A stretch of 64,000 nt of DNA from contig OX419759.1 of NCBI GenBank assembly GCA_948567375.1, positions 59,176,593-59,240,592 of the forward strand. Reading direction: 5' to 3'. The translations under genes and the position numbers were made by a program. Of this stretch, positions 11,642 through 63,472 are shown piece by piece. This DNA is from Lunularia cruciata (Eukaryota > Streptophyta > Marchantiopsida > Lunulariales > Lunulariaceae). Under the pieces are notes generated by a model. That model was not told where the DNA came from, made no database searches, and saw only the letters and a program-made list of their open reading frames with translations. Positions within the stretch are counted from its first letter, which is position 1. Each line of letters begins with the position of its first letter.

Positions 11642-13493
11642 TCATGCACAGTTGGTGGGTGAGGATATCTTATTCAAAGTATCATGGTCCAATGCCACAT
11701 AGTATCTTGTCACCCAGTCGATGAGCTCATCGATCATCATTGCAGCCACTTTGTGCTGAAAAGACTGAATAGCATTGAAGTAGCCCAAATCCAACACATT
11801 GGTGTCAAGGTTTTTTGGTAGCTGTTCCATCATCATCATCAAGATTGTGTTCTTTTACTTTGGTGGCAGCTTCACAGAAACTCATATTGTCTGGTTTGAA
11901 ATGAGGTCCTACATTATCGGCCTGAATGAACACCCTCTGCATAGTACCTTGAGTTTTGCGACCTGCTACAGGCCACTTGTTGTGAATGGCAACAAGCTCT
12001 TTGTCAATCATGTACTTGCGATAAACATCATGATCAACATAATCACCCTAGTACCATACTTGTCAAGCCATTTGTAGTGTCGCATCTAGATTGCTTGGAC
12101 ATTGGAGTTGCAGTGATAGTAGTTAGAGGTATTTTAGCAATCACTCATAGACTACTTTCTGACAATCAGATTTTGTGTTCGGGGTACTGACTTCATGGTG
12201 GGGCCCACCATCACTTTGTACCGTTTGCACCGTTGGGTGTGCCGTCGATGGGACCTTTAGGCTTTCAGACCTAGCTTGAGTCCAGGGATATTTTTTCAAA
12301 GTGCAGCTCTAGAGAGTTCAATTCTCTAATGTTGAGCCTTCGAGTTCCTGGCTATGGTGGACAGAGGCCGGCGAGCGTCACCTGGATTCTCTTAGCTAGA
12401 GTGGGTGTGGCTTGACTATGATCAGTGCACAGTTATTGGCAGTTCATAGAGTACTGATCTCATAAATCATAAATCAAGTACTGATCTGAGTTGAGTTGAT
12501 TTGAATGGTATAAATGAATTGGTTATTGTGGCACTTTAGGGTCTATGTATGACTTATGTGTGAGTTATGTGTCCATAGTGTATGATGCTGACAATGATGT
12601 ATGTTGTGTAGCAATGTATATATGCAGGACAAACTACAATGGGGGCAATGTTTGCTTGAACACTTGGTAGGCTCTTCGTAGACAAATGGGAAGAGGCTGA
12701 GTTTACCATCAAACAAATGGTTTTTATTGTGATAGTGACAAGGGCTAGGAATTGCTGTGGTGAACATTACCTTGGTAAGGAATCTTTTGCTTTTGATACA
12801 ACGCTTTAGAGATGGCTCATCATTTGTGAGATAATACTTCATGATGTAAAACCACTTCTTGTCGACATGACATGATTTTACATGTTGTTGAACAACTCAA
12901 TCTTGGGTCATTGATGATAGTTGCAAATGGGTCAAACAATACTAGATGTGTGCTTACTTGTTTTCCTTAGTAAAAAATGGTTTGACAACATATGAATGAG
13001 CTTGGATCTTGCATTCCTTAAGATAGGCTTGCATGACACTATATGTTTCACCCAAAGCATGCACCAAGGAACAAAGCAAAGATTACTGATTGATTGGGAT
13101 ATTTTTCATCTTATCGGTATCAATTTCAATCTTTTTGTGCCCAACACTTCCAGCCTTATGAGCCTTATGATTGACAACAATGCTGCCTTCTTGAAGAGAA
13201 CTTTGCACTTGATGCCACATAGAGCTGACTGTCTTGGTGCTGGTGCTAAATTTGCCGGCCGCTTCAACAAGGGTAGCATGTTTAAATTTTCCATTTTCAC
13301 TGCACGATAGCAGATGATGGTACATGGCTTGATGTTGATCATTGGTAAGCTCTTTGCTAGCATAATGGTTAAACATTGTTACAAAATTGGCATTTAAAAA
13401 AAGATTAAGTGATTCCAAACTAGATGTTGTTCTTATAATTGAAAAACACTCAAAATTAAATTTAAGAACACTCAAAATTGAATTAGAAAACAC
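11642..13493 (-). pseudogene. Mariner-like transposase, split and decayed
   Basis: Reading on the minus strand from 13493: an N-terminal helix-turn-helix region around LTNDQHQAMYHHLL and KTVSSMWHQVQ, then a VGHKKIEID segment (to about 13083), all in the order of plant MLE transposases. After a stop, further conserved pieces follow: the first acidic motif VDKKWFYIM, the KSKRFLTKVMF and FVYEEPTK blocks (12840-12640). Beyond the retroelement insertion come the second acidic motif QADNVGPH and the third, LDTNVLDLGYFNAIQ (12011-11642). All three catalytic aspartates of the DD39D type can be seen, but there are several stops and frame changes plus the insertion, so no active protein is possible. 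Confidence 0.88.
12061..12631 (+). mobile_element. Internally deleted or solo derivative of the DNMT-element family
   Basis: Begins TGTCAAGCCATTTGTAG and ends GCAGGACA, the same outer limits as the element at 32773-42568. It matches A1 (32773-33038), then the first part of that element's leader (to about 12500, equal to about 33200), then after a short unmatched spacer jumps to the B repeat (about 12525-12631, equal to 42089-42195). It therefore lacks all coding sequence. It could be a solo LTR if the family LTR is really A-leader-B, or a deletion derivative. Flanks (TACT left, AACT right) are only partly alike. It is visibly more diverged than A1 is from A2, so it is older or from another subfamily. 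Confidence 0.75.
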
Positions 13494-31888: not shown

Positions 31889-32772
31889 TATAACACCCAT
31901 TTGTGCATGTATGTGCTATTGTGATATTTAGTTTGGTATAATAGTACTTGAGAGATATTATTTATATGGAGATAAAGTATGGTTTTATATTAATCATGAT
32001 AAGCTAAAGTTAGTTAGAGCTAAGATAGAGGGAACCTTACTTTAGAGGAAGTATGAGCACCACTATTTTGGATTCTAGTGTATTAACTTGGTATTATTCT
32101 TAGGTGTTTGACTTTGAGGAAAGAGTTAAGAACTCTTGGACCCACAAGACTTTTTGTTTAGGATTCTTCTATAATCCAAGGATAGCCCATGTGAAGGAAT
32201 CCTTGATTTAGTGGTCGGGTCAAGATAAGACCACATGCTTAGGAGAATATTTGTATGAGTATGGATATTCCTTTAGTTCTTAAATTTATTTGACTTTTAG
32301 CTTAGTAACTTGAGTTACAACAGTAATTAGTAACTCTGGTGCGTAATTATTTCACAAGTATATAAACAAGGGGTGAGGAGGTACTAATCATCCTTTTATT
32401 TGCAACTATCTCTCTCTCTCATTGAGTTCTCTAGTGAGCAATGTATGGAGTCTTAGAGTGTTAGCCTTGGAGGAGTATGATGGAGTTCTTGCCTTTTTAG
32501 TCCATGGTGCACTACCATAATAGCCATTAGAGGTTCCTCCTAAGTGAGAGACATGCTGGCTCACATTTTTAGTTCCATTATTGGGACCTCTCTAGAAGGT
32601 AAGATAATATTGTACATACAACTCTATATTAGATAGAAGGAGGCTTTGAGAGCTCACTTAGAGAGAACATTAGGAGTAGAGAGTGCTGAACTTATATTAG
32701 AGAACCAAGACCCATTTTTATACCTTGTAGTTCATTATGATATCTTTGAGGTGATTTTTTATATCTTGTACA
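31889..32772 (+). repeat. LTR of outer element E1 (5' copy) and following leader
   Basis: Starts TATAACACCCATTTGTGCATG and matches the segment starting at 63539 for at least 460 bp (to the window end) at about nine bases in ten. The right LTR limit is not visible and some of 32400-32772 may be the E1 leader. The left junction cuts chromovirus 2 at 31888; the right flank ends in TACA, the target site of the next insertion. Contains TATA-like and CT-repeat stretches near 32350-32425. A solo LTR is the alternative. Confidence 0.65.
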
Positions 32773-33038
32773 TGTCACGCCATTTGTAGTTCCGCATCTA
32801 GATGCTCGGACACTGGAGTTCCAGTGATGGTAGTTAGAGTTATTCTAGCTGTTTCTCAGGGACTACTTTCCGACGGTCAGATTTCGTGTTCGGGGTACTG
32901 ACTTCACGGTGGGGCCCACCGTCACTTTGCACCGTTTGCACCGTCAAGTGTGCCGTCAGCGGGACCGTTAGGGTTTCAGGGCTAGCTCGAGTCCATGGAG
33001 TATAGTTTCGAAGTGAGCTCCAGAGAGCTCACTTCTCT
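32773..33038 (+). repeat. Terminal repeat A1 of the DNMT element
   Basis: 266 bp from TGTCACGCCATTTGTAG to AGCTCACTTCTCT. It is the same length as A2 (42196-42461), with only a few differences such as CCATGG/CAGGGG near the right side. Unlike A2 it runs on into the leader and is not preceded by repeat B. Confidence 0.9.
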
Positions 33039-34633
33039 GATGTTGAGCCTTCGAGTTCCTGGCTATGGTGGACAGAGGCCGGCGAGCGTCACCTGGATTC
33101 TCTATGCTTGAGTGGGTGTGGCTTGACTGTAATCAGTGCCCAGTTGTTGGCAGTTTATAGAGTGACAGATCAAGTACTGATCTGAGTTGAGTTGAGTTGA
33201 GAATGTTAAGCAATCTGATTACATCAGAGAAGTGAAGTCAGGGGGAAATCGGGTGCAGGAACGTTGAGTGTTGGTGGTATCTCCAAGCTCGGTGGATCGT
33301 GGTAGCTCAATTCAGGTTCTATGTTTCCCTAGTGTGCAGAAGCTTGTGTAGTTGATGCAAATTTGGCAGTTAGGCGGACGGTGTGCGGAAGCGCTGGCCA
33401 AATTTCGAGCAAAGAAGGAGCAATTTTCGAGCAGTGTTGTGATTTTGAGCTCAGGAGGTGAAGGCAGGACCAATTTGCTGCGAGTTGGGCTCAGAAAGTG
33501 AAATTGAAGGTGGAGTTGGAAAGCTCTTCTCATGAAATTGTGATTTGGAAAAACTCGTTTTGTCAATTTGGCTCGAGTGGAAAGTTAGCGGGGGATTTGG
33601 CGGACATCCATCTTTAGGGTTTACGTCAGATTTTACGTCAGATTTACGTCAGATTTTGGGCCAGAATTGGAGGAGTTTTGCTGTTTGGCCAAATTTGGAG
33701 AAGTTTCGCTAGTTTGGAGGAGTTTCACAGATTTGGAGAAGTTTTGCCAATTTTGGAGGAGGAGTTTCACAGATTTGGAGAAGTTTTGCCAATTTTGGAG
33801 GAGGTTCGAAGTGGCAACAAGAAAGGCCTCATTTGGCTGAATTTCGGCGTTTAGAGGCTTCGAGGCATAGGGCTGTGGGCTATGAGAGGCTACGAAGGCC
33901 TAGAAGGGCCAGAAAGCCAGCTTGCTGGCGTGAGGCTAGCTAGTTTAGTGTAGATCTTGGTCATTGGTTGGCAAAATCTGCCATTCTTGCTAGATTGTGC
34001 GCAACAAGGTTTGACCCCTAGATCTCTTGTTCCTAGACTGGTGCCCTAGCCAACTGGTCCACCCTCACTTGTTGTCATAGTGACTGTGCCACTGTTATCT
34101 ATACACATGTAGCTTTGGCTAGGAGAGGCAGTTTGATCCCATTCTTGGTGATCCTGGTAGCTTAGGACTTAGATACGAACTACTCTTATGTCAAATGCCA
34201 AATGGTGGCAGAGTCAGTCTCGTGTTGTGTTATGAGATGGAGGGTTTTCGTTTAGATTTCTTGTGATTGGATCCCCTCCATTCTCTGCTTCCTATTTGTG
34301 CACCACGTTTGTGTGAGGTGCCTTGACTTTTGAGCGTTGGTGCTCTGGTGTGCTCTCGGTGGTGAGGCTAGAGTGATGACCAGTTAGACTACCTTTGTTT
34401 CTCTCCGGTGAGGCAGGAAGTGATGACATGCAGACCGTGAGAGTGCGTGTTATGATGGCAGGTTACAGGTTGCCCTTCCCCTAGTGTAGTTATCTCGGTT
34501 AGAGTTACATTAGTGGGTGGTGTTTTAGTTGGTGTTGGCACGCGGTGGTGTTGGCACTTGGTGGGGCACTTGCGGTTGCGACTTGCTGTTGCAGTTGGTG
34601 GTTCGGGTTTGTTGGTGTGGTTACTTTGTCACG
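33039..34633 (+). other. Untranslated leader of the DNMT element with short tandem repeats
   Basis: About 1.6 kb with no ORF that continues the Gag frame. Contains GAGTT pentamer repeats (33184-33203), three TTACGTCAGATT units (about 33619-33657) and repeats of TTTGGAGAAGTTTTGCCAA and TTTGGAGGAG (about 33680-33805). The first 160 bp are shared with the derivative at 12061-12631. If the PBS at 34203 is real, the part before 34200 is LTR U5-like sequence. Confidence 0.65.
34203..34217 (+). other. Candidate primer-binding site of the DNMT element
   Basis: TGGTGGCAGAGTCAG matches TGGTATCAGAGCCAG, the initiator-Met-tRNA site common in plant LTR elements, at 12 of 15 positions. It lies 2 bp after a CA dinucleotide (34199-34200), the normal spacing from an LTR end. 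This would make 32773-34200 the R-U5-like part of the 5' LTR. Confidence 0.55.
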
Positions 34634-36322
34634 ATGGAGTTCTTTGGAGATTCCAGAGGAGTTAGCCCTGCAGTACGCAGTGGGTTTACTCGGAGTGGTG
34701 CTCGGTATCAGCCTGTATCTCAGGTCCCAGTGAGGGAGGAGATTGACTCTGAGTTGGAGTTTGACACAGGAGCTGATTCAGTTGAGAGTGCACTTGGTGT
34801 GTCCGCACCGTTGTTGTGGGACATGGACGAGATTTATGGGGCCTCCAAAGGCCCTAGGCGTTACTCTGGTACAGTGGGTACCATTGAGTTGGATGACTTC
34901 ATCTAGGAGTTTGATAGTTGGTGTGATCTGCAGCAGATGCGGAACCCGACTTTGTTCACACCTTTCATGGCATGGAAGGGGTTGTTTCAGCACTTGGAGG
35001 GTCCACCGATGGACGACTACCATGAGTTCAGGAGAGCTCATTTGGAGGAGATTGAGTTATGGAGATAGTATTGGTCTCCTCACTATGTCTCCATCACTTC
35101 AGGCTCGGTGGCCAGGAGTAGATCGGCTGTACCTACGAGTTCTAGCTCGAGTAGTGTGGGTGGAGCTAGTGGAGGTGCACTAGCTGGAGATAGTGCTACT
35201 ACGAGTGGAGGTACCGCTGCAGGAGGTGGTGTGGTACCGGGGTTTAACCCCATGGTTGAGTTCTTCCTATGTTTAAGGCAGAACTACCAAGGAGTGCGGA
35301 CTGACAAGCTGAGGAGCTTGCAGGAGTTCCAACGGAAGGCTGGAGAGAGCCTACGCGAGGCATACACTCGCATGAGGCGGCTGATCAGTTTCACTCAGGG
35401 AGTTACTGAGGCCCAGGCAGTCCAGTTTTGGTATGGGATACTGGACAAGGAGTTGCGACGTAGAGTTCGTGATGCTACGTTGTTGCAGGCTACTTTGCCC
35501 ACTTTGGCAGTAGTCTTTGGTTTGGCTGAGCGTATTGAGCTCAACATGGTGGAGGAGAGAGTGGTGACATCTGGATTTGGTAGGGAGACCTCATCCACGG
35601 TTGTGACTTCTTCTAGAGTGCAGCAGAGTGCACCACGCCCAGTTGGTTTTCGAGGACAGGGTGGACAGCCCAGATCCTATGGAGCGAGTGGAGGGCCTAG
35701 TGGAATTAGACCCTTACCCTCATTTTCGGGTCAGCAGCAGCCAGTGAGTGGTGGTGTTGCTTGTTGGACTTGTGGTGGACCTCACCATAGGAGAGAGTGT
35801 ACGCAGGGCAGCGGACCTGATACCTCTGGTGCATCACAGCCAGCACAGAGGCAGTGTGAGCATTGCCACAGATTTGGTCACACTAGTGACCGGTGTTTTG
35901 ACCTACACCCGGAGTTACGGAGTGGTAGGGCTGCTATGGCAGGTAGTAGAGGAGCTCCAGTTCATGGAGGACGAGGTGGTAGAGGTGGTGGTAGAGGATC
36001 TACACCTAGTAGGGGTGCAGTACCTGCCCTTACTTCTGACACAGCTATGGCTACTCGGATTGAGCAGTTGGAGCAGAGATTGGCTATTGCTCAGAGGAGA
36101 TCAGATTCGGGTGTTGAGGCTTCCACCTCATATGCTGGTGATAGAGATGCTTTGGACTTCATGTGCGGAGCAGCACAGGTGGATGCATCTGCAGCAGTGA
36201 CTAGGAGTGTTGTACGTGCTCCAGAGCCTAGAGGAGCATCAGTGGAGTTGGACCCACAGAGAGGAGAGGTTGGGAGACAGGTCAGACTTCCCCAGTCTTT
36301 CACGCTATCTGAGGCATTGTAG
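34634..36322 (+). other. Gag region with two zinc knuckles
   Basis: Contains a retrotransposon-gag type capsid region (EFDSWCDLQQ near 34907, FQRKAGESLREAYTRMRRL near 35330, and FWYGILDKELRRRV near 35427). It then has a Gly/Ser/Arg-rich stretch and two CCHC knuckles: CWTCGGPHHRREC (35761-35799) and CEHCHRFGHTSDRC (35855-35896), the second followed by a FDLHPE segment. An RG-rich basic tail (about 35935-36015) follows and may bind RNA. Stops at 34904 and 35066 lie within this region. Confidence 0.85.
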
Positions 36323-36331
36323 ACGACATCC

Positions 36332-37160
36332 ATGGTTCCTAGACGTCCCAGTGCAGGTGTGGTAGGTGGTGATGGAGTACCTGATGGAGTACCTGCTAGT
36401 CAGCCACCTGCTACTACACAGACTGAGTCTAGCATGATGTTGGGGGCGGCTCAGCTGATTATGCGGCATCCTTTATTTTCAGCCAGTGACATGTTTACAT
36501 TGGGAGTTGACCCAGCCCCAGTGTTCCGGTTGGCTGCCACATTGTGTGAGAGTAGGGATGGTGCAGTTCCTACTACTAGAGCAGAGGTGGTTGGTAGTGG
36601 AGCTGACTTGGTTGAGGAGCATGGGATCCGTTCAGCGACCAGTGGTTTATGGCAGGCAGCAGCGGCTAGACTGGAAGAGTTGCCAGCTAGACCGGCCTTT
36701 GAGAGAGCGCGGTTTACACCTGGTGTTGTCCTACTGGATAACCAGAGGGGGATCTTTCGTTTGGTGGGACCTTCAGGGAAGGTCTATACACCACAGAGAG
36801 TCTTGTTAGACTCTGGTGCGCAGCCCCTTATGTTGGGGAAGGCTGCAGTTGTTGGTCTGGAGTTACGGAAGACCGATGTGGAGAGGTGTCCATTTCAGAT
36901 CTAGACATCTCTAGGTGGTGGTTCGACACAGTACATCACACGTGGGGAGCTTGTTGTCCAGGTTCAGCCTGGTCATCCGACTGATAGCTCAGTGGTGAGA
37001 GCTTAGGCTATTGCGACGATAGCTGAGTCATATGATGTGCTAGTTGGGGGAGCAGTGTTATACCCTATGGGTTTCAGTATTGACTATTGGGAGGAGACAG
37101 CCTCTTATAGACCTGGTTGGCAGTCTGGTGAGGGACGGGTATGTCGCCTACCAGTACGCT
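36332..37160 (+). other. Aspartic protease region
   Basis: The active-site triad is DSGA (36809-36820) in VLLDSGAQPLMLG. The far half, YDVLVGGAVLYPMGFSIDYW (about 37031-37093), is the usual I-L-G-x-x-x-L motif of retropepsins. Stops at 36902 and 37004 fall between the two halves. About 350 bp of unassigned, acidic and Pro-rich coding sequence follow before the methyltransferase. Confidence 0.85.
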
Positions 37161-37499
37161 TTAGTAGTGGCAGTGTTGGCTCACTACAGTCCGGGACCAT
37201 GGCAGCATCAGTTTTGGCTTTCAGCGGTGCAGTCACTTGGCCTGGTGACTTCTTGGAGGGGAACGCCCATGCAGAGGATACTCCAGTACCAGAGGAGATC
37301 ACTCGACTTTGGAGTATGAGTGGGATTGTTCCATCCACCTTGGATGTTCCATTGTGGAGTTCAGAGGAGGCATTGCAGCAGCATGCGGATCAGTTGGTGC
37401 AGCAGGCTTGGAGTGGAGCCTTCGTACCATCAGGGGATGAGTGTGAGGATGAGCCTCCAGAGGCGATTGCTTTGACACCTCTGGATACCACACTCATTG

Positions 37500-38485
37500 C
37501 TTGGCAGTATCCAGTAGAGGGGATATGTCTATTAGAGTTGTTTGGTGGGATCAGCACCGGACTAGCTGCGGTGTTACAGGCGGGTATCCGAGTACAGAGG
37601 TACTTGTATGTAGAGAGAGATGAGACTGCTAGGCGAGTCTCTCTACATCATGTGGCACACTTGGCCTATCGATATCCGGAGTTATTACCGATGTCAGCAG
37701 TCAGAGGTTACCAAAAGGCCTTACCAGGAGACATTTCCTTACTGGGGGCGCATGACCTAGAGAGACATGGGCCTGTTCACTTGGTGATTTTTGGATGGCC
37801 ATGTCAGGGACATACACGTGCGGGCCGCGGTTTGGGTCTTCAGGATCCTCGTTCTGGTGTGTTTTGGGAGATGTTATGGATATTACGACATCTCCAGGTT
37901 CATCAGTCTGTTTCTCCAGCTTACCTTTTGGAGAACGTTCCATTGATGGGTGATTCTCGCACTAGAGTGGTGGCGAGTACACATCAGGTCCATTCATGGA
38001 TGGGACCTGTTGTATTGTTAGATGCAGCCAGAGTGGGATCACGGGCTCATCGTCTTCGTCTTTGGTGGACAAACCTTTTACCCAGAGAGGTTCTACAGCG
38101 TAGTTATGATGGGATTCAACGACTAGACCACATTCTTGTTGATGATATCTTGGATGCTGGACGTCAGTCTCAGACAGTGGTAGTGGCTGATAGGTCACCT
38201 ATGGCAGTGGTGAACCTAGTTGGACAGCCTAGAGCTGCATTTCCCACACTCATGAGTTTCCCAGGCTCTCATGCTTTTCGAGAGGGAGGACCTGGACTTG
38301 TTTGGGACTCATAGTTACAGCAGTTGGTGGAGCCCAATGCTGATGAGAGAGAGCGGGCGATGGGTTTTCGCACCGGTATTACCGCTGTTCTAGCAGTGTC
38401 AGAGGCATCCAGGCGTCAGGTGTTAGGTCAGGCTATGGACCTAATTTGTTTGACCTGGATTGTGAGCCTTGGTTTGGCAGAGCAG
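37500..38485 (+). other. DNMT3-like cytosine-C5 DNA methyltransferase domain
   Basis: Transfers methyl from S-adenosylmethionine to C5 of cytosine in DNA. Motif I reads LLELFGGISTGL (about 37527-37562; SAM binding). A Glu in the RYLYVER strand follows (motif II). Motif IV is FGWPCQGHTRAG with the catalytic Cys codon TGT at 37802-37804; motif VI is LLENVP (37925-37942); motif VIII is LDAARVGSRAHRLRLWW (about 38018-38070), whose shape (I-D-A-x-x-V-x-x-A-H-R-x-R-x-F-W) is that of DNMT3 rather than DNMT1 or CMT. The C-terminal ERERAMGF and RRQVLGQAMDL segments (about 38345-38450) correspond to the DNMT3 tail and motif X. No ADD or PWWP domain is attached. A single TAG (38312) interrupts it; core motifs are unbroken. 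It lies in the polyprotein frame between protease and RT, so it is part of the element and not a neighbouring host gene. Confidence 0.92.
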
Positions 38486-38889
38486 CGTAGGATGCGCTTG
38501 ATAGGCATCACCACTCGGACACTTGTGAGCCCTGTGCCGATCGAGACGATTCAGGCACATGCTGGGGGTGATGGACCAAGTGGACATGGTATTCTTGGGA
38601 CACATCCAGTAGCTACTAGGGAGAGTGGTCTACTTAGAGTCCATCCAGGTGAGGGTGGGCTACTTGGATTACACCCTTGGTCCACATGGGATGCAGCCAG
38701 AGGACGTATGGAGCTTGCAGCCAGAGTGGAGGGAGTTTTTCACACAGAGGTTGGGACCTCTAGTGGTCGGGAGCATGACACTATTGCTCCCAAGGGCCCA
38801 GTGTAGCAGCCAATCAGTACGTCTTCCACTCCTACTACAGTTACAGAGGATACTTGGGAGCCAGATCTTGGACCCAAGCTTACTGGAGA

Positions 38890-39720
38890 GGAAAGACGGA
38901 GGGTTTGGAGGTTCTTGAGGAGTCACACGAGTTGTTTTGCCTTTAGTATGAAGGATTTGGGTGCTCTGAAGGGACCTGGTATACGGATTGAGCTGACTAG
39001 CGACACACCTGTTTTCCGACGTCCTTATCGATATAGTGAGATGGAGAGGACATTGATTCAGAGCCGGAGTAGTGACCTTTTTGAGGCTGGTTTGGTGGAG
39101 ATTTCACATGGAGAGTATGCATCAGTGACAGTGATGCCAGCCAAGAAGGATATGCATGGCAACTATACAGATAGGCGGATGTGTGGAGATTACCGTCCTA
39201 TCAACCGACAGACCAGGGCTGATCGGTATGCCATGCCTACACCGGAGGAGATTTTTGATGCGATTGGGCATGCAAAGGTCTTCAGTACTTTGGATCTTCG
39301 AGCGGGATATCATCAGTTGCCGATCAGGGAGGAAGATAAGTCCAAGACATCATTTTGGGCTATTGATCCTCACGGCAAGGATGTGTTATATCAGTGGAGA
39401 TTCTTACCATTTGGGTTGAAGAATGCTCCTGCTGAGTTCCAGAGGGTCATGGATAGGATCCTAGCTGGACTGGATTTTGCTCGGTGCTATATTGATGACA
39501 TTTTGGTTTATAGCACTACTGTGGAGGAGCATGAGAGACAGTTGTTGGAGGCGTTTGAGAGGTTGAGATCTCATGGACTCAAATTACATCCTGGGAAGTG
39601 TAGGTTCTTCCATGAGCAGGTTGAGTATTTGGGTCACACTATCTACCCGGAGGACTTGGTGTTCAGCAGACCAAGGTGGAGGCTATTGCACGTATTCCTC
39701 GGCCTACGGATGTGAGCAGA
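38890..39720 (+). other. Reverse transcriptase of the DNMT element
   Basis: Landmarks: IELTSDTPVFRRPYRYS (about 38983), MCGDYRPINRQT (39180), FSTLDLRAGYHQLPI (39282), FWAIDPHG and FLPFGLKNAPAEFQRVMD (39400-39455), and an intact YIDD (39488-39499). The frame is lost at about 39652, inside the LGHTIYPE connection motif, by an apparent 1-nt deletion; the matching sequence goes on in the next frame. Confidence 0.93.
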
Positions 39721-39724
39721 GTGC

Positions 39725-40330
39725 GAGCATTCCTTGGGTTGGCAAACTTCTATCGCCGCTATGTTAGAGGATTTAGTGCCATTGCCAAGGCCTTGACGAA
39801 GCTGACCAAGCTTACACAGGAGTGGTGTTGGGGAGATGAGTAGGAGAGAGCTTTTGTAGAGCTCAAGGAGAGGTTGACATCTGCTCCTATTTTGAGGAGA
39901 CCGATCAGAGGACGACCATTTCAGGTTCACACTGATTGGAGTATGTTGGGGCTTGGAGCGGTGCTCACCCAGCATGATGATGAGGAGAAGGAGTTTGTGG
40001 TGGCCTATGCTAGTCGCTCCAACAATCCAGCGGAGGCGAAGTATTGTTCATATGAGGGAGAGTGCTTGGCAGCAGTTTGGGCTGTAGCACATTTCCGATG
40101 TTACCTATTTGGTAACCCCTTCACTCTCATCATTGATCATCAGCCGCTGAAGTGGTTGATGGAGTCCGACAAGCTTTCAGGGAAGCTTGCACGATGGGCT
40201 CTGATTTTATAGGAGTATGATTTCACGGTTGTTCACAGACCTGGAGTGGTGAACCGTGATGCAGATGGGTTGAGTAGAAACCCATGTCCCAGCCAGCAGG
40301 ATCAGACCGGAGCACGTTGGCATGGTGAGA
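39725..40330 (+). other. RNase H of the DNMT element
   Basis: After the FLGLANFYRRY connection segment, the RNase H core reads FQVHTDWSMLGLGAVL (about 39915), YEGECLAAVWA (40050) and IIDHQPLKWL (40130), and ends with the FTVVHRPG and DGLSR motifs (40225-40280). Stops at 39841 and 40210 replace residues that are Gln in most relatives. Confidence 0.88.
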
Positions 40331-40599
40331 CAGATGAGGAGATGGTGCCAGGTTGGCATGCATCAGCCTTTCTGTGTATATTTGCAGAGACATTGGTGGT
40401 ATCTCTCTCAGCGCATACAGGAGGAGTTATTGAGGTCACAGATCCAGAGAGTGAAGATATTGGTACAGTTCAGCGAGACATTCATGATGATGTCTTAGTG
40501 ATGGACTATCTTCGCACTGGTGTTGTGGGTGGCACAGTTGGGGCCAAGGAGAGAGACCGTGTTCTTCAGCGAGCCAGACGGTTCAGATTGGAGGGTAGA

Positions 40600-41770
40600 C
40601 ACCTTTTGCGTGTATGGGAGGATGGTAGAGCGCGAGTAGTACCACTTCCATCACAAAGACCACAGTTGGTCCGTCATGCTCATGAGGAGCTAGGACATTT
40701 TGGAGTAAAGCGTACATATAGCTTACTCCAGAGTCATTATTGGTGGCGCGGTATGCAGACCGAGGTACAGCAGTTTGTTGCCAGATGTGTGGTTTGTGAC
40801 CGAGTTAGAGCATCATTCAATGCTCCTACGCCATAGTTACACCCATTACCTATCATGGGATTGGGTTACCGTTGGAGTTTGGACTTCGCCGGACCTTTAC
40901 CGCTGACTGTGAGACATCATTGGTATGTTTTGGTGATGGTGGAGCACTTCTCCAAGTGGATTGAGTTGGTGGCACTTCCTGACAAGTCTAGTGAAGGGAC
41001 AGCTTACTCGTTCCTGGATCGAGTTCTTAGTCATTTTGGTGCACCAGCTGAGGTTTTGACTGATCAGGGTACAGAGTTCTTGGGAGAGTTTCAGGTCTTG
41101 TGTGACAAGGCTTTGATTGATCATCGTACTACATCCCGAGATCACCCTGAGGCAGATGGCTTAGCAGAGAGAGTGGTTCAGACGGTGAAGAGAGGATTGT
41201 GAAAGTATGGTTTGCAGAGAGGCCACTTGGGAGATTGGGATCTCCAGTTACCTTGGTTGGCCATGGGCTATCGGTTCAGCCGGCAAGCCTCCTTAGCATC
41301 CTTCTCTCCATACTTTCTACTCTATGGACGAGATCCAGATTTACCTACAACCATTCGTCGAGATGCTACTGTAGTTTTGGACTTGGATGACCCTGATGTA
41401 TGGATGAGCGCATGTTCTCAGCGGGCAGAGATCTTTCGGAGAGTGATGCCGATGGCCTTCGAGAACTTGGCAATTGCTCAGCATAGAGATACTTTACGCT
41501 ATGCTACCATTCGAGGAGGAGGTTATAGACCCTCGATCCATCGATTTCATCCAGGCAACTATGTATATCTACAGCAGATAGCACCGACGACACTTGATGT
41601 TTCTACAGGCCGCACTATCTTGAGAGTGCGCGAGGTTTTGCCATCTGGAGTCCTTGTGTTAGAAGGACGTGATGGTGTTGTTTGGAAGGATCATGTGCGC
41701 AATTGTGCGCCATGCCACCTCCCAAACATTGATGGTACTATGGACCCCAGCTTGGCACTTGTACGTGCAG
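40600..41770 (+). other. Integrase (zinc-binding, DDE core, C-terminal domain) of the DNMT element
   Basis: The HHCC zinc domain reads HAHEELGHFGVKR to CVVCDRVR (40675-40812). In the catalytic core the first Asp is in WSLDFAGPL (about 40873), the second in VLTDQGTEF (about 41053), and the Glu in ADGLAERVVQ (about 41152); all are present. A C-terminal domain with HPGNYVYL and VREVLPSGVLVLEGRDG (41545-41690) resembles the GPY/F module. Integration by this enzyme class gives 4-6 bp target duplications, consistent with the TACA flanks. Stops lie at 40834 and 41200. Confidence 0.9.
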
Positions 41771-41778
41771 GCTTGAGG

Positions 41779-41919
41779 TGTATGTTATGTGGCTCTTCTG
41801 GTGGAGCTGCTACTATGTTAGTGTGTGATAGCTGTTCGAGAGGATGGCATATGGCATGTATGACTCCTCCCCTCACGGTGGTTCCTCAGGGACAGTGGTT
41901 ATGTCCTAGATGTACTTGA
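41779..41919 (+). other. C-terminal PHD finger fused to integrase
   Basis: The last 47 residues hold a full C4HC3 zinc module: CMLC, then CDSC, then H-x-x-C in WHMAC, then CPRC, with the typical MTPPLTVVP and GQW spacer before the last pair. PHD fingers of this shape usually bind histone H3 N-terminal tails (unmodified or K4-methylated). It takes the position of the chromodomain in chromoviruses, so a targeting role is inferred. The aromatic cage was not modelled, so the preferred mark is unknown. The frame ends with TGA four bases after the last Cys codon. Confidence 0.9.
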
Positions 41920-42077
41920 CCTATAGCTAGTTCATTCTTTATATGGTATAGATTGCAGACAGGCGACTAACGATGGGGCTCCATAGCACCCGGCCTCCTG
42001 ATCTTTGCCCATTAGAGGGTATACCATATACTTAGAGTAGATGGCTATCTGGAGTTAGAGGGACCTAACCGCCAGCT

Positions 42078-42087
42078 AGGGGGGCGA
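42078..42087 (+). other. Polypurine tract of the DNMT element
   Basis: AGGGGGGCGA lies 1 bp before TGTGGCACTTTAG at 42089. This is the normal place for plus-strand priming and marks B1 as the start of the 3' LTR (U3), even though the integrated element begins at A1 instead. Confidence 0.65.
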
Positions 42088-42088
42088 T

Positions 42089-42568
42089 TGTGGCACTTTA
42101 GAGTCTATGTATGACTTATGTGTGAGTTGTGCTTTTATAGTGTATGATGTTGACAGCGATGTATGTTGTGTAGCGATGTATATACGCACAACAACTGTCA
42201 CGCCATTTGTAGTTCCGCATCTAGATGCTCGGACACTGGAGTTCTAGTGATGGTAGTTAGAGTTATTCTAGCTGTTTCTCAGGGACTACTTTCCGACGGT
42301 TAGATTTCGTGTTCGGGGTACTGACTTCACGGTGGGGCCCACCGTCACTTTGCACCGTTTGCACCGTCAAGTGTGCCGTCAGCGGGACCGTTAGGGTTTC
42401 AGGGCTAGCTCGAGTCCAGGGGGTATAGTTTCGAAGTGAGCTCCAGAGAGCTCACTTCTCTATTGTGGCACTTTAGAGTCTATGTATGACTTATGTGTGA
42501 GTTGTGCTTTTATAGTGTATGATATTGACAGCGATGTATGTTGTGTAGTGATGTATATACGCACGACA
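42089..42568 (+). repeat. Terminal block B1-A2-B2 of the DNMT element
   Basis: B1 (42089-42195) and B2 (42462-42568) are near-identical 107-bp copies starting ATTGTGGCACTTTAG and ending TATATACGCAC-ACA. A2 (42196-42461) repeats A1. TATA-like motifs (TTTTATAG, GTATATAC) stand in B just before A, so A may begin near a transcription start, which would make B U3-like and A R-like. The right end GCACGACA is followed by TACA. Confidence 0.85.
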
Positions 42569-42572
42569 TACA

Positions 42573-43093: not shown

Positions 43094-45872
43094 TGTGACA
43101 ACCCGGCAAATATCACTTTTGTGGTAATCGGGTAAGTAAAGTTCGTTCCCACAGAGATATGAGCCAGAAATGTCCAAATACAAAGCAAAGTAACAATGTA
43201 GTTCTTATTGGTTGCGTCTTTAATCTCTCAGGTAGAAACCACACCCAGAAGAGAGTAACAAGCACAGACTCACAGTCTTGTCATGAATTAACACTCCATA
43301 ATCACAACTCCATCAAATCTTTCCAAACAATCGAGATTGTGATGATTCAGGCTATCTCGAAAACGGCACTTCACTGCAAAATGACTTCGCCTCAAAATTG
43401 TGTTCCACCCCTCCACTAAAGGCACAACTTCCTCGATTGAAATTGCTTCACATCAACTTTGCACTGCACTCACAAATGCAGAATACTACCAACACTACAA
43501 TTCCTCTCAGATCTGTCAAGGCATTGCTTCGATTGCACTTCACTCAGGATCAAACACACAAAATGAAGATCAAGGCTGTGGAATCCAACATCCAACAAGC
43601 ACTCTGACTTGCACTTCAAATTTCTTCACACACTCACAAACATAGACACAAAGTTGATACTCAGAATCAAGCTCAAGCAACGAGCACTACTTCACAACAC
43701 TTTGCTTTATCTATTCTCAAAAATAATGAGCACTGAACCACAATTCTCTGCAAATATCACTCTTAAGTAGTGAATCAAATCGACAGTTCTAACAACTATA
43801 CCGTTCTACAACAACTCTTCTAACCTGCAGATCCGAAATGACAATGCACCTCTTCATAACTGCCTCTTCAAATCTCAAAACTATTACTACTCCGATCCGA
43901 TATCTACTTCTTCCTCGGCTTTCAAACCCAAACCTGAAGTAATTTTACTTCCTACTTCTCTTTCCTCGGGTTTCGTATCTTCTACTTCATCTACCAGATC
44001 CAACAATTCCCTTTCCTGATCTGAAATTCCGCTAGTGGGTAATCTATCTAACTCCTTATCTCCCGACCCACTCTTCTCTAATGTCTCCACTGGTAACTCC
44101 AAAGACATTTGTACTCCTATGTTATCTACTTTGGGTTTTGCTCTAACATCTTTCCAAAACTTTTCTATCTCTAGTTTCACTAAGTCTAATCTAATTGAAA
44201 TGTTATCCTCTACCTCTAAAATCTTTCTATCTACACGAGTTCTGAGACTAATTAACAAAGCATTCATATCTGTATCCTTTGCTTGTCTTCACCTCATCTC
44301 CTGCACCAACAACTTCAACTCGTGCAGCCTCATCTCTTCAATCCGAATGCTGGCCTCTGTACTTAACATTGCATTCATTTGGAGGACTATCTCCTTCAAT
44401 GGCTCCAATCTTGTCTTCCTCTCACGTTCACGATCTGCGAGCCAATCCTCTCGGTACATTGCCAACTTTGCCTCGAACTCGGCTTTCATCGACTCCTTCT
44501 CCTTCTCCTTCTGAACAACTCTCTCTTCCTGATTACGAAGTAACTCTCGTAATTGGTCTTCTTCTCTGTATCGTGCCGCCAACTCTTGTTGCCAAAGTTG
44601 CTTCTTCTCCTCAACACTCTCCATCACCCTATTGAGCTCTTGATCCTTTGCTGCTACCCTCGCCATAGCATGGATTACCTCTACTCTTGAATCAACAAAC
44701 CGCTGCTTCAAGATCTCATACTCCGCTACTTGTCTCTCCCTTGCTATGTCACTCTTCTTCACAAGATCCTCTCGATAACTTACTTCTCTCTTCAGGTCTT
44801 CAATTACCTGATTTCTCACCATTGCCTCCGCTCGCAGCACTTCCCTCTCCTCCTCACCTCAGGTTATACTCTCCTTCAACTCCGAGTTCTCTTCTTCTAA
44901 TTGTGCTAATACTTGCAACACAATCTTCACCTCTGGACATGTCGACTGCATTTCCTTCTTCTTGTGCTCCAACTTCACCAACAATGGGCACACAATCTCC
45001 CGTAGGTACTCCACTCCATCACTGGCAACTACTTCATCCCGTTGAGTGATCTCCCTTCTCACGTCTTGTTCTCCCGATACTCGCCTTCTTTGCTGTAGTC
45101 GTTGTATTGGAATTGACACCTCACTTCCCTTCTTCCTTGGGTCCATCGAGACACTTGCTCTTGATGATTTCTATCATGAAACTTGGAAAGCTTACATTCC
45201 AGTTCCATGCCAGAAACGTGATCCAAAGTCGGCTCAAGACTTCGATCCTAGCTATTACATCTAACCTACAAATCGCATGATTTCTCACTACAAATTCAGA
45301 GTTCTTCTTTCCTCCTCCCATCTCTTCTGCCTTCTCACTATCTCTCAATTTCACTCTCGCGACTTCTCCCTTACGCACTACCACGATTCCAACTCTATTT
45401 CCCTTCCCACGATCACCTACAAGATGACTTCTCAACAGCAAAGGAAAATTACTCAACATTTCGTCGTTGTGAGTTTGATTTTTATAGAGTTGCGCTTCTT
45501 CGTCTTTCGTCACTTTGAGTTTCTACCAAGAAATCACACCTCTTGCATGCACATGTCACTGTCAATCAACCTTCGCGCATATGGGCCGCCGGTTTTTGAA
45601 TGGTCTCTTCTTGAATTTCTCGCCCCGACGAAAGGTTGTTAGACTGTCTTGGCCTCGGGTTGAGCTCCTCCTGATACGAAGACAATTTACTTTGGGTTGT
45701 ATGCTGACAGGGCATTTCCGAGTACTTCGCCTTATGACCCGAAGTCACTTTACTTCGGGTTTCATCCTGAAGACTCTTTTCTTCGCCTTCTTTGGCCATA
45801 CAGGCGCAATCCAACTTCTCTATACACTTCTTCTCCTTTATTTTGAAAAAAACAAAAAATGTGGGCTCCACA
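43094..45872 (-). mobile_element. Solo LTR of the E2 family, minus strand, 2.8 kb
   Basis: Begins TGTGACAACCCGG on the plus strand (inverse of the E2 LTR end GGGTTGTCACA) and ends GTGGGCTCCACA (inverse of the LTR start TGTGG-ACCCAC). It is flanked by TTGAC (43089-43093) and ATGAC (45873-45877), 4 of 5 bases alike, as expected of a Ty3 target duplication. It matches both E2 LTRs in inverted orientation, but differs in length because of a roughly 1-kb deletion relative to the 3' LTR of E2. It contains the LTR reading frame described next. Confidence 0.88.
43887..45146 (-). pseudogene. Coiled-coil protein encoded inside the solo LTR
   Basis: From ATG 45146 (MDPRKKGSEV) to a stop at 43887, about 420 codons in one frame broken only by two TGA codons (at about 44859 and 44289), each where the related copies have Arg. 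The middle 180 residues (44840-44289) are a long charged helix rich in Glu, Arg, Leu (ELNRVMESVEEKKQLWQ, QKEKEKESMKAEFEAKL), strongly coiled-coil in character. The tail has a DRKILEVEDNI helix and an acidic Pro/Glu-rich end. No catalytic motif is seen. Preserved frame and phase in three copies suggest past selection. Confidence 0.7.
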
Positions 45873-57702: not shown

Positions 57703-60700
57703 TGTGGTACCCATATTTTTGTTCTTTTCTTATTTTTGGAAGAAGTGTACAAATGAAGTCATATTGCGCTTGTATGGCATCATAAGGCAAAGAATGGTGT
57801 CTTCAGGTTGTAACCCAAGGTAAGTGACTTTGTGTTAGAAGACAAAGTACTTGGATTGGTCCTGCTAGCATTCAACCCAAAGTAAGGAGACTTTGGGTCG
57901 GAGTGCCCAACCCGAGGTGAGGACAATGTAACAACTTTCCTTCAAGGTTGAACATTCAAGAAGGTACCACAAAAAAATACAGCTGGCCTAAGGGCAGGGG
58001 GAAAATTGATAGTGATAGGAGCATGCATGAGGTGTGATTTCTTGGTAGAAAACTCAAAGTGAAGAAAGATGGAGGAGGCGCGCCACTTTAAGATTTGGGA
58101 TAGAGACGAAGAGATGACAAGTAATTTTCCATCACCATTAAGAAGTTGTCCTAAGGGAGATTGTGGAAAAGAGAGTGTAGTAAGAGACACACTGGTGCAT
58201 TGAGAGGAAGTCAAGAGAGTTAGTTTGGGAGTCAATCGGAAGATTAGTCACCCACTCATAGTGGAAGAGAGCAAGATGGGAGTTGGAAAGAACTTGGAAT
58301 TCATAGTGTGAAATCATGCAATTTGGCAATTAGATGTGATTGCAAGAATCAAAGTCTTCATCAGACTTTGGATCACTTTTTTGGCATGGACCTGCAACCT
58401 TAGTTTTCCAAGTTTCATGACCAAGATCATCAAGAGTAAATGTCTGAAATGGATCCGAGGCAAAGGGTAAGAGAGGAAATTTGGCTTGATGGACAGAGTT
58501 GGATTGGAGGTTAGTACTCGGAAGAGAGGTGGGTGATGAGCAAGGAACCACATTCTTGGGGAAAGGAGAAGTAGCTGAGGAAACCCAAGAAGTGCTAGAA
58601 GCCTTTTCTCAAAGAGCACAAAGAATGGTTATAAAGTTGAGAGTTACAAGGACCCTATGAAGATAGGCATCATAGGAGCAATGATGGCTATCTTCAAGCT
58701 AGAGCAAACCACTTATGTGATGAAACATGAAGCGGTGTTCTTCTTTAAGATGTTTGTAGGGGAACCAATTAATTGGGCAAATCTTTTCTATCAAGACAAA
58801 TGGTGTGGAACTTGCGGGACAAGTCGTCTCCGCACTACATTGTGCCATTTGCAGCACTACTTGGGACTGAATTTGTTGAAAGTGGTAGAAAGATACAAGA
58901 TGGTGTTGCACTTCCATCTTGACTTGAGAAGAGATGCTGATGTGGAGGAGCAGCAATACATTGTGCAAATCAGAAGTAGTGATGAGTACTATGCGCCCTA
59001 GATGGGGCAGAGCGTGCATTTGGGGTTGAATACTCCAAAGTCAAAGAAGAGGAGTCAAAGAGGAGAAGAAGAAGTAGCAGCATGAGACCTCAGAAGGTCA
59101 GAAAAATAAACCCAAGGAAGGACCTGGTGGTGATTGCATTGTCGGGAGAAGAATCAAAGGAGGAAGCCGAGTACAAGTCAAAAGACTCGGAGAAGGAGGA
59201 AGAACCTGAACTCATGTTGCAAAGTGGTGAAGCAAGTAGTGAGAGTGAAAATGGAGTGGAGATGCAGCTTGTACTAGAGGATGAAGAAGGAAAGATGGAG
59301 ATGGTAGAAGAAGGAAACCCGAGTCAAGACGATGAAGTTCCAGAGAAAGAGAAGAAGAAGGTGACCATTAAGAGAGGTGTCTGTTCTAGATGGAAGGTGA
59401 TGTGTGAGGCGAGGCCAAGTAGAAGAAGAGAAGTGGAGAGTGGAAGTTCGGGAAGTGAAGAATTCATCCCAATCAGGCGGCTATGGCTAAGAAGAAGAGT
59501 GTCAAGTGACAAAGAAGTGAAGAAAGAGAAAAGCCCACAAGCTGAGGTAAGCCAGAGTGGAGGAGTGGAGTATCTACAAGAGGTTGTATGCCCATTGCTG
59601 ATGAAGTTGGAGGAAAAGAAGAAAGAGATGCAACTGGAGCATCCAGAGGTAAAGACTGTGTTGCAAATATTGGTAAGGTTAGAAGAAAAGAACGTGGAGA
59701 TGAAGAAGATCATAACTTGAAGAGAGGAGCAAAAGGAAATACTATGAGTAGATGCAGTAGTATAGAACCAAGTAATTGAGAATCTAAACAGAGAAGTGGG
59801 AAATAAAGAATTAATAATAGAGCAAGATGTCATAGCAAGAGAAAGACAAATAGCTTAGTATGAAATTTTGAACTAGCAATTTGTTGATTCACGATTAGAA
59901 ATCATTCATGCTATAGCAAGAGTAGCAGAGAAAGAGCAAGAGCTCAATAGAGTGATGGAGAGTGTAGAAAAGAAGAAGCAACTCTGGCAAAGAGAGCTAA
60001 CAGTGAGATATAAAGAGGAAGAGAGGTTAAGAGAGTTACTTTGTAATCTAGAAGAGAATATTTTCCAAAAGGAGAAGGAGAAGGAGACGATGAAAGCTGA
60101 ATTTGAGGCAAAACTGGCAATGTATAGGGAAGATTGGCAGGTGGATCAAGAACAAGAGAGAAGGATAAGGCTTGAGCCACTGAAGGAGATTGTAATCAAG
60201 AGGAACATGATGTTGAGTACAGAAGCCAATGTGCGGATTGAAAAAATGAGATTAAACAAGTTAAGATTGTTGGTGCAAGAGACAAGGAGGAGAAATGCAA
60301 ATGATAAAGATTTGAATGCTTTGCTGATTAGTCTCAAAACTTGTGTAGATAGGAAGATATTGGAAGTGGAAGACAATATCACAGATTAGATTGGATTTAG
60401 TCAAGTTAGAGATAGATAAACTTTGGAAGGATGTAAGAGCAAAGCCTAAAGTCGATGAGATAGGAGTATAAATATCTCAAAGTTACCATTGGAGATATTA
60501 GAGAAGAGTGGGTTGGGAGATCAAGAGTTAGGAAGGTTACCCATGGCGGGAATTGTAGATCAAGAAGAAGAAGTGTTAGAATTAGTAGAGGAGTAAGTAG
60601 TTGTGAAACACAAGGATAGAGTAGTATGTGAAATTACTTTGAGATTAGGTTTGGAAGCCGAGGAAGAGGTAGACATTAGATTGGAGTAGTAACAATTTTG

Positions 60701-61490: not shown

Positions 61491-62124
61491 CATCTCAAAG
61501 GATGGAATAGCAATTGATCTTGAGAAGGTAAGGAAAATCTCAAACCTTCCATTCACTTCAAGCTTGACAAAGTTACGCCAATTCTTGGAGATGGTTGGTA
61601 CTATAGGAGGTTCATCCTCTCATTTTCAGCAAGGCTTATGCATTGACCATCTGCATGAAGAAGAGTGTAGATTACATGGTGAGTTTGGAAGACACGGAGG
61701 CTCTCAAAGCTTTTGAGGAGCTCAAGCAATCCCTTGTTGTAGCTCCAATTCTTGCTAAACATGATAGGAGTAAGCCTTTCATCCTCTACACTGATGCTTC
61801 TAATGTAGCTATAGGATGCACTCTTAGTCAATAAGACCAAGATGGGCATGATCATCCAATAGCTTATGCTAGTAGGTAGATGGCTTTAGCAAAAAAGAAC
61901 TATTTTGTCATAGAGAGAGAAGAGTTGGGGGTGATCTTTGGTCTTAAGAAGTTTAGACACTATTTGGTTGGAAGGGAGCCACCATTTTCACAAAACAAAA
62001 GGCTTTGAAGTACGTCTTCAACAAGCTTCATGTGGAAGGGAGACAAGCAAGGTGGATGATACTCTTGTCTGAGTATGACTAGACCATTCAGGATAGGCTA
62101 GGGAAGAAATATGCAAATGCAGAT
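61491..62124 (+). pseudogene. RT C-terminal part and RNase H of E1
   Basis: Continues from 49057: ISKDGIAIDLEKVRKI (about 61492) is the RT thumb/connection segment directly after LEH. RNase H follows as KPFILYTDASNVAIGC (61775-61825) and YFVIEREELGVIFGLKKFRHYL (about 61905-61970). Several frame changes and stops. Confidence 0.83.
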
Positions 62125-63472
62125 TTGTTATTTAGGACATATGATCATGATGGAGATGAGCTAGTGTATGATTCCTTCTTGGATGAGGAGCTCAGGACAA
62201 TCTTAGTCACTCAAGAGGTTCCAATGGAGTTCAAGGAGATTGTGGATTCTATGACAAGAGGTAACTATCCAGAAGGGATGCATGCTAAGGAGAAGAAGAC
62301 CCTTGCAGCAAGATCTAGACCTTACACAATGGTGGAAGATATTCTTTTTCACCACGGAGTGGATGGTCCACTTCAAAGAACAATGGGTAAGGAAAAGTCT
62401 ATCCTACTCATAAAGGAGTTCCATGAAGTTTTAGTGTATGGAAGACACTTTGTAGGAAAAGTGATTGCTTTCAAGATTCTAGACGCAAGTTACCATTCGA
62501 GAGGGATTTTCAAGGATTGTCTTGATTATTGCAAAACTTGTCATGTTTGTCAAGCTTTTACTAGAAAGTCTACTTACACCACTTAAATCACTTAAATCAA
62601 TTCCATTGCTAGGACCTTTTGAGAAGTGGGGAATTGATTTTGTAGGTTCTCTTAATAGAACCCCAAGGAACAATCAATACATTGTGGTAGTTATTGATTA
62701 CCTTACCAAGTGGGTTGAGTTTAGATCACTGAGGGACAAGAATCAACATGAAGTCAATAAATTTCTTTATGAACGCATTAGGTTTGGATGCCCTTTGGAG
62801 TTGGTTTTTGATAGAGGAGAAGAGTTTACAAAAAGCATCACTATAGCTATGCTACAACATTTCTCTATCAAAAATAGAGTAACTACATCATATAAACTAA
62901 ATTCTAATGGCTTGGTAAAGAGAACCAATCAGACCTTGTGGATGATGTTGGCCAAAGATGTAGAAATGGAGGGGGCTAAACATAATTGGGACAAGAGGAT
63001 TTATGCAATTTTGTGGGAGTATAGAACAACCATGAAAACTTCCATTGGATATTCTCCATTTCAATTGGTATATGGTATTGAGTCTACCTTACCTATTTAC
63101 TTTGATCTTCCTTACTTCCAAAGTATTCATAGGAGATTGAAGAAAGCACAAGGAGGTGAAGCAAAGAAGTCAATGAAAGATCAACTCATGGAATTGGAAG
63201 AGGCAAGAGAAGTTGTTATGGTTAGAGTGGAGCAAGCCCAAAGGAAACAAATGGAGAGCTATGACAAGAGGCAAGGCAAGAAGAAGGCAGAGCCTTTCAA
63301 AGAAGGTGATTGGGTAAGGTTGTTTGATTCCATTCAATTCAAGAGAGTACAAAAGAAGTTTTTGCTTAAGTATTTTGGACCTTTCATAGTGGAGAAGATG
63401 TGGGGAAATTACACTTATGATCTCAGGGAGTGGGGAGAAGACACTTTGATAGGATTAACCATGATAAATTGA
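62125..63472 (+). pseudogene. Integrase of E1
   Basis: Zinc-binding region FVGKVIAFKI to YCKTCHVCQAF (62440-62565). Core: first Asp in KWGIDFVGSL (about 62625), second Asp in LVFDRGEEF (62800). The catalytic Glu position in NGLVKRTNQTL reads Lys (AAG at 62918-62920). LWEYRTTMKTSIGYSPFQLVYG follows (63015), then a long charged linker and KYFGPFIVEKMW (63370-63405). There is no chromodomain. A frame change near 62580 and the Lys substitution make it non-functional. Confidence 0.85.

Follow-up and report, generated by a model that had tools for sequence, protein, structure and literature searches.

Retrotransposons bearing a cytosine methyltransferase of the DNMT3 type were previously known from dinoflagellates and one charophyte alga, and they present a puzzle, as a transposon carries the type of enzyme which hosts use to silence transposons. 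The text of de Mendoza et al. (2018; PMC5890265) describes KnitGypsy-Dnmt3 of Klebsormidium nitens, for which self-methylation of the complementary DNA (cDNA) was proposed, and shows CG methylation in yeast for the dinoflagellate SymbioDIRS-Dnmt3. Streptophyte DNMT3 elements are termed long terminal repeat (LTR) Copia in a passage of PMC12344493, as opposed to Gypsy in PMC5890265, and methylase-bearing transposons are stated in the text of PMC6338049 to be absent from land plants. Here, a stretch of 64,000 nucleotides from the liverwort Lunularia cruciata (contig OX419759.1, forward-strand positions 59,176,593 to 59,240,592), referred to as the window, was found to contain a retrotransposon with its coding part at 34634-41919 (all coordinates are window positions, and all features of the element lie on the plus strand). 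It is almost certainly a Ty3/Gypsy-type element with a DNMT3 methyltransferase and a PHD finger. On balance, we consider it probable that the element represents a dead copy from an old DNMT3- and PHD-bearing Ty3/Gypsy-type family of green plants, working by the mechanism proposed below.

The element shares with KnitGypsy-Dnmt3 a Dnmt3 within a Gypsy-type coding frame and, according to the legend of Fig. 4c (PMC5890265), the combination of Gypsy domains with DIRS-structured repeats; purifying selection on the DNMT is also reported in that source. A K. nitens protein of the present comparison (P0233) likewise has DNMT3 between the protease and reverse transcriptase (RT) of a Gypsy pol. Compared with KnitGypsy-Dnmt3 as described there, the family reported here has a bryophyte range, a PHD finger, a probable readthrough stop after the DNMT, putative self-priming and an integrase-type target-site duplication. 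SymbioDIRS-Dnmt3 is also a retrotransposon-borne Dnmt3 but belongs to the DIRS class, called distantly related to Gypsy in the same text, whereas a DDE integrase is present here. Host DNMT3 of non-angiosperm plants, to which the window domain is likened by the description in Yaari et al. (2019; PMC6453930), has a DNMT3-type catalytic domain without DRM rearrangement as well, but the window domain lies in a retrotransposon polyprotein and not in a host gene. Searches of an open-access library gave no account of members in bryophytes, of the PHD finger, of the readthrough stop or of a clade with relocated DNMT.

Architecture of the Element

The domain order of the element is Gag-protease-DNMT3-(UAG CAR YYA)-RT-RNaseH-integrase-PHD. 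A single frame extends from the ATG at 34634 through Gag, the protease motif, DNMT and RT, and a shifted frame continues from RNase H to the TGA at 41917. In the initial annotation, a DNMT had been placed between the protease and the RT of a Ty3-type element and in frame with both. The protease-motif piece (36323-36904), the DNMT piece and the RT piece (38807-39715) do share one frame. That frame is not open, however, being interrupted by 11 in-frame stops and by a frameshift between the RT and RNase H pieces.

The Ty3/Gypsy order of Gag, protease, RT, RNase H and integrase is present, with Gag and protease of the window copy recognized by motif and without a Pfam match above cut-off. The Gag region (34634-36319) has two CCHC knuckles (35762-35800 and 35855-35896), a PF03732 match below cut-off (E 0.017), internal stops at 34904 and 35066 and a terminal stop at 36320. 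The protease region (36323-37006; stops at 36902 and 37004) was called by its LLDSGA motif (36800-36838) and by its relatives; the Pfam scan gave no match to the window piece and weak Asp_protease matches in relatives. These are followed, beyond the DNMT, by the RT piece (38807-39712; YIDD at 39488-39505; PF00078, E 1.3e-31), the RNase H piece in the shifted frame (39844-40209; PF17917, E 3.6e-34) and the integrase (40213-41199), consisting of a zinc-binding piece (40213-40833; PF17921, E 3.9e-19) and a DDE core (40837-41199; PF00665, E 3.5e-14). No tyrosine recombinase was detected by Pfam in nine pieces of the element, the DDE core being found instead.

The integrase C-terminal region (41203-41919) contains the PHD finger (41779-41916; PF00628, E 1.6e-11), which was present in 44 of the 48 relatives in which 180 or more residues follow the integrase core. 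Its nearest PDB neighbours are CHD4 (best, E 2.7e-14), KMT2D, PHF12, KDM5 and PHF21A, several of which read histone H3 unmethylated at K4. Plant chromoviruses are Ty3/Gypsy elements with an integrase chromodomain; the window element resembles them in having a histone reader at the integrase C-terminus but differs in that this is a PHD finger and in the addition of a DNMT. By analogy, the PHD finger may steer integration in a chromodomain-like manner.

The Methyltransferase Domain

The DNMT spans 37529-38443 from motif I to its tail. The piece at 37007-38311, which ends at a stop at 38312, holds motifs I to VIII and the target-recognition region, and the piece at 38315-38803 holds the motif IX/X-like tail and the end of open reading frame (ORF) 1, with a weak family-profile alignment to the DNMT3A C-terminus. 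All the features that had been attributed to a DNMT3-like C5 methyltransferase were located, namely motif I (37529-37564), motif IV (GWPCQG; 37784-37813) with the catalytic Cys codon exactly at 37802-37804, motif VI (ENV; 37925-37954), motif VIII (R.R; 38039-38074) and the tail (38345-38443). Motifs I, IV (PC), VI, VIII, IX and X occur in unrearranged order and the DRM-type rearrangement is absent. The domain matches Pfam DNA_methylase (PF00145) at E 2e-6 and 27.9 bits (cut-off 22), and DNMT3A/B/C proteins made up the 29 best of the 39 PDB sequences listed, with a best E of 4e-8 that improves to 1.6e-19 with the family profile. The nearest solved family is thus DNMT3, with DNMT1/2, DRM and bacterial enzymes more distant; the best matches of the domain do not fall outside the C5-methyltransferases.

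The motif-IV Cys is kept in 79 of the 81 relatives in which the pattern was found (69 PCQ and 10 ECQ), the count including P0239, a pattern misfire, and P0041, which reads PYQ. Selection was examined against an unbroken relative on an environmental contig (L028, see below). As fourfold sites between the two are near saturation (0.73), differences per codon position were used rather than dN/dS. At positions 1, 2 and 3 these amount to 41.8, 31.1, and 63.7% for DNMT (273 codons), 31.9, 26.0, and 61.1% for RT and 52.6, 50.3, and 70.2% for Gag. The DNMT codons show constraint. Judged from its sequence, the enzyme is likely to be catalytically active in intact members of the family.

The Stop Codon at the ORF1/ORF2 Junction

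The TAG at 38804 is proposed to be the natural stop of ORF1, lying in UAG-CAG-CCA (38804-38812). In tobamoviruses, UAG-CAR-YYA is known as the context of type-I readthrough. It occurs at two of the 1042 TAG triplets of the window and, among the 12 element stops listed, at 38804 only, and ORF1 of L028 ends at the same junction with UAG-CAA-UCA. Of 23 relatives listed, eight terminate 87-93 residues past motif X, compared with 120 in the window. Taken together, the stop context, its counterpart in L028 and these protein ends indicate that the DNMT probably closes ORF1, together with Gag, before a readthrough stop, with RT-integrase as the predicted readthrough product. This corrects the earlier assignment of the domain to Gag-Pol, the DNMT probably being expressed with Gag rather than as a part of Pol.

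Relatives of the Element

A search with the DNMT piece identified 80 proteins at E ≤1e-3 (7996 candidates scored), and a profile search identified 89. Named DNMT relatives come from Calypogeia fissa, Marchantia polymorpha, five Sphagnum species, Riccia sorocarpa and Closterium, and an RT-based search (1040 matches, of which 120 were listed) added Klebsormidium nitens, Volvox and Haematococcus. No vascular plant was named among the matches listed, which is not proof of absence. The same layout in named bryophyte proteins supports an extension of the known range to land plants, as had been anticipated. The window RT groups with Calypogeia, Marchantia and one further row (support 100/97, and 100/98 in a smaller tree), for which reason the element is called bryophyte-like. 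Among the proteins of Sphagnum and Marchantia that public databases name “DNA (cytosine-5-)-methyltransferase”, P0012, P0019, and P0081 were observed to be pieces of this retrotransposon family.

The only RT relative in a scan of public genome contigs was L028 (9285 nt, CADCWO010000201.1), the ends of which overlap exactly over 127 nt, as in a circular assembly. Its ORF1 (Gag-protease-DNMT) and ORF2 (RT-RNaseH-integrase-PHD) are unbroken, adjacent and in one frame. L028 shares 95% identity with the environmental protein P0136 in its RT, and 42% with the window in its protease-DNMT region. The record is titled uncultured Synechococcales cyanobacterium MAG81, of which bin L028 is a contaminant, as it is plainly a eukaryotic retrotransposon binned with a bacterium. 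In viral contigs the DNMT profile matched 27 loci at 25-33% identity, and RT searches of these contigs gave no relative. The 27 loci were rejected as relatives of the element, being taken from their source as phage or bacterial methyltransferases, and were used as outgroup only.

Among 122 RT proteins, 22 have at least 330 residues before the RT. The DNMT is found there in 13 of these, after RNase H in four and nowhere in five (P0151, an arthropod outgroup, P0213, P0225, P0226, and P0227). The other 100 are too short upstream to judge, as would be the case for L028, where ORF1 and ORF2 would form separate records. Since liverworts, peat mosses and green algae all have relatives built from these parts, the enzyme seems to be a long-standing functional component of the family and not an accident.

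The DNMT occupies two positions in the family. In an RT tree of 69 rows it lies before RT (position I) in 15 and after RNase H (position II) in 16, for example in P0197, P0242, and P0243 (RT-RNaseH-DNMT-integrase-PHD). All 16 position-II rows fall within one clade of 24 (100/98) without any position-I row. In the smaller RT tree, seven position-II rows form one clade (99/98) beside K. nitens P0233, which is not adjacent to the bryophyte rows and the placement of which differs between the two trees. In the DNMT tree, ten position-II rows and the fragment P0064 form a clade (99/97). The relocated clade rests on Volvox and algal-type proteins, since the Volvox match to the DNMT profile covers 83 residues (56.7 bits), whereas Haematococcus P0208 matches over 26 residues only, at its extreme end (12.9 bits), and P0213 of the same alga gave no DNMT profile match. 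RT and DNMT distances of 20 proteins were correlated (Mantel 0.44, reached in 0 of 2000 permutations; 62 of 2000 within position I and five of 2000 within position II). This correlation and the single position-II clade fit co-inheritance with one move of the domain and do not prove a single capture.

Terminal Repeats and Putative Self-Priming

The element begins with repeat A1 (32773-33038), which starts with TGTC and is followed by segment X (33039-33220; its 3′ limit is approximate, being taken from an alignment in which 33040-33200 is 84.7% identical to 12329-12504). At the other end, a polypurine-tract-like GCTAGGGGGGC (42074-42086; counterpart in L028 at about 6936) precedes repeats B1 (42087-42193), A2 (42196-42461), which is without X, and B2 (42462-42568), which terminates in GACA. 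A1 and A2 differ at four of 266 positions, two of these being CAG/TAG, and B1 is 97% identical to B2 over 107 nt. The copy is flanked by the target-site duplication TACA (32769-32772 and 42569-42572), for which the probability of a 4-nt chance match in the window is 0.0054. An older solo copy (12061-12631, plus strand) has the structure A-X-B with identical outer ends (TGTC...GACA) and an imperfect duplication (TACT/AACT); it is about 15% diverged from the full copy (identity 84% for A, 85% for X and 88% for B).

The duplication expected of a DDE integrase is therefore found on both sides of the full copy and imperfectly in the solo copy. The order A-body-B-A-B corresponds to split direct repeats, with one full and one solo copy, and the body of the window element is not flanked by two identical LTRs (A1 on one side, B1-A2-B2 on the other). 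The element is accordingly classed as having a Gypsy-type pol between split repeats and not as a plain LTR element, and the label “LTR-type” of the initial annotation is corrected in this respect. That two insertions have the same unusual ends suggests that split repeats are a trait of the family. DIRS/PAT elements have the same repeat order but differ in having a tyrosine recombinase, in place of which the window element has a DDE integrase core and a target-site duplication. It was also observed that the inner B-A junction (42180-42205) reads CAACA-AC-TGTC and that of L028 (at about 7050) reads CGACA-GC-TGTC, a palindrome; the junctions look as if two element ends had been joined with two bases added, and may template the regeneration of ends.

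A hairpin is predicted at the end of A1 (33010-33035; -18.9 kcal/mol, z -2.77, with none of 200 shuffles as good). Its 3′ arm together with the next bases (33029-33043) is exactly complementary over 15 nt to a putative self-primer binding site at 33221-33235, a length reached by none of 200 shuffles (maximum 12). L028 has a hairpin of other sequence at the equivalent place, with a complement of 13 nt lying 176 nt further downstream (7239 and 7415; maximum of 11 in 300 shuffles). No tRNA gene was found in the window. Elements of the Tf1 type are self-primed, an arm of the transcript's own leader RNA being complementary to the primer site. The window element is alike in this, except that its putative primer arm forms the 3′ strand of a hairpin. 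As the pairing is kept in spite of the sequence change between the window and L028, a self-primer as in Tf1 is suggested, and it seems fairly likely that the minus strand is primed by the element's own RNA.

Decay of the Window Copy

The stops in frame from 34634 to the final stop at 41917 comprise ten TAG, one TGA and no TAA, and in-frame Gln codons comprise 97 CAG and six CAA. Compared by eye, relatives have Gln at the stops at 34904, 36902, 39841, and 40210, and Arg at 41200. The window copy is dead, with about ten nonsense lesions (nine TAG and one TGA) and a frameshift. Such a pattern would be left by C-to-T change in methylated CHG and CG contexts. Together with the CAG/TAG differences of the repeats, it suggests that the copy was probably silenced by host methylation and then decayed, mainly by CAG to TAG change. 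The stop at 36320 may be natural as well, because two Calypogeia proteins start directly after this position (MVPR...). Recoding of TAG as Gln was considered and rejected, since CAG and TAG coexist in frame, TAG falls at Gln sites of relatives, and A1 and A2 differ twice by CAG/TAG, as would be expected from deamination.

Alternative Explanations

That a host methyltransferase was recently fused by chance into a single copy of the element can be set aside with near certainty, as diverged relatives in several plants and algae, and L028 likewise, have the domain in the same order; the domain is common to these relatives and is not a recent match to one host gene. It is quite improbable that the TAG at 38804 is a further decay lesion and not a programmed stop. 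Such a lesion would agree with TAG making up ten of 11 in-frame stops, and in 18 relatives, including some spliced gene models, a single predicted protein holds the DNMT ahead of RT, the junction stop being either not universal or not visible there. Against it, 38804 is alone among the listed stops in having CAR-YYA and the unbroken L028 has this context at the equivalent junction. The split repeats could be accidental in the window copy, the element being an ordinary LTR element (LTR = B-A-X) with a lost 5′ U3 and a rearranged 3′ end. The polypurine tract lies directly 5′ of B1 and the putative primer site directly 3′ of X, making B-A-X readable as a conventional LTR, the full copy lacks a second X behind A2, and the circular contig L028 is indistinguishable under both readings. 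We regard this as unlikely, as two separate insertions about 15% apart both begin with A and finish with B, the full copy has the TACA duplication, and the Fig. 4c legend reports a DIRS-like repeat structure for the K. nitens element (PMC5890265).

The DNMT might be kept for a role other than DNA methylation, such as RNA methylation, particle structure or binding only. The text of PMC5890265 reports no methylation by the K. nitens enzyme in yeast, a result inconclusive according to its authors, and ten of 81 motif-IV matches read ECQ. Such a role nevertheless appears improbable given the Cys in 79 of 81 relatives, the ENV and R.R motifs of the window, a nearest solved family of DNMT3 and not DNMT2, and the CG methylation by SymbioDIRS-Dnmt3 enzymes in yeast (PMC5890265). 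More serious, although still the less probable history, is that Gypsy-type elements captured host DNMT3 several times (in liverwort/moss, Klebsormidium, Closterium and chlorophyte lineages) in place of one capture and one move. The K. nitens case is read in the text of PMC5890265 as an acquisition in that lineage, the domain is found at two different places, and the best DNMT tree, with a host sample of one DNMT3A fragment and phage enzymes as outgroup, does not separate all retrotransposon DNMTs from human DNMT3A, which lies on a long branch inside their rows. On the other side, the AU test (p-AU 0.227) does not reject a single retrotransposon clade set against DNMT3A and the phage enzymes, the RT distances agree with the DNMT distances (less so within position I), position II forms one RT clade beside position-I rows, and the PHD finger is common to the elements, as are the split repeats per the published legend. 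The one-protein relatives, the missing X after A2, the yeast result and the placement of DNMT3A weigh against the interpretation preferred here, as does the folding of the whole leader (32773-33260), which was not unusual (z -0.59).

Other Features of the Window

Two copies of a coiled-coil-like repeated reading frame, alike by eye, lie in opposite orientation at 43887-45170 (minus strand) and 58986-60389 (plus strand). No Pfam match was obtained in the tested pieces of these frames, which possibly belong to another mobile element. A remnant of another Ty3-type integrase is located at 62083-63472 (plus strand; PF17921 at 24.7 bits and PF00665 at 30.9 bits, both just under cut-off). An apparent host gene for a short-chain dehydrogenase is present at 7446-8369 (minus strand; PF13561, E 3.6e-53) as one open frame of 307 residues.

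Proposed Mechanism and Significance

Alongside the observed domain order, stop context, repeats and constraint, a mechanism covering stoichiometry, packaging, methylation and targeting is proposed. Most ribosomes would halt at the UAG, giving Gag-protease-DNMT3, and a minority would read through to give RT-integrase-PHD. The DNMT would in this way be packaged at Gag-like dosage next to the new cDNA. Minus-strand DNA would be primed from element RNA by the hairpin arm on the site about 180 nt downstream, and the DDE integrase would insert the product, with the PHD finger steering it via histone H3. The DNMT may methylate the cDNA at once in the particle, or the insertion site, which would mark the copy as self or heterochromatic and spare it a damage or foreign-DNA response. 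Self-methylation of the cDNA or target is plausible, and we put it forward tentatively. Rather unlikely in its full form is the broadest reading, in which a DNMT3, once captured, would have stayed for hundreds of millions of years in one ancient lineage spanning chlorophytes, streptophyte algae and bryophytes, serving there as a partner at Gag dosage, with the readthrough layout, a self-primed genome, pre-methylation of the cDNA or landing site and a PHD finger choosing the H3 state.

The readthrough layout predicts dosage and packaging of the DNMT, and the PHD finger predicts targeting. The database annotations of P0012, P0019, and P0081 as cytosine methyltransferases are those of transposon proteins, which affects counts of host DNMT3 in bryophytes. 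With members in Marchantia polymorpha and Sphagnum, the question of why a transposon carries such an enzyme is now placed in tractable plants with genomes, methylomes and genetics. Under the broadest reading given above, the element would bear its own pair of de novo methylation and chromatin-reading activities, like the catalytic domain and ADD reader of DNMT3, divided over two polyproteins.
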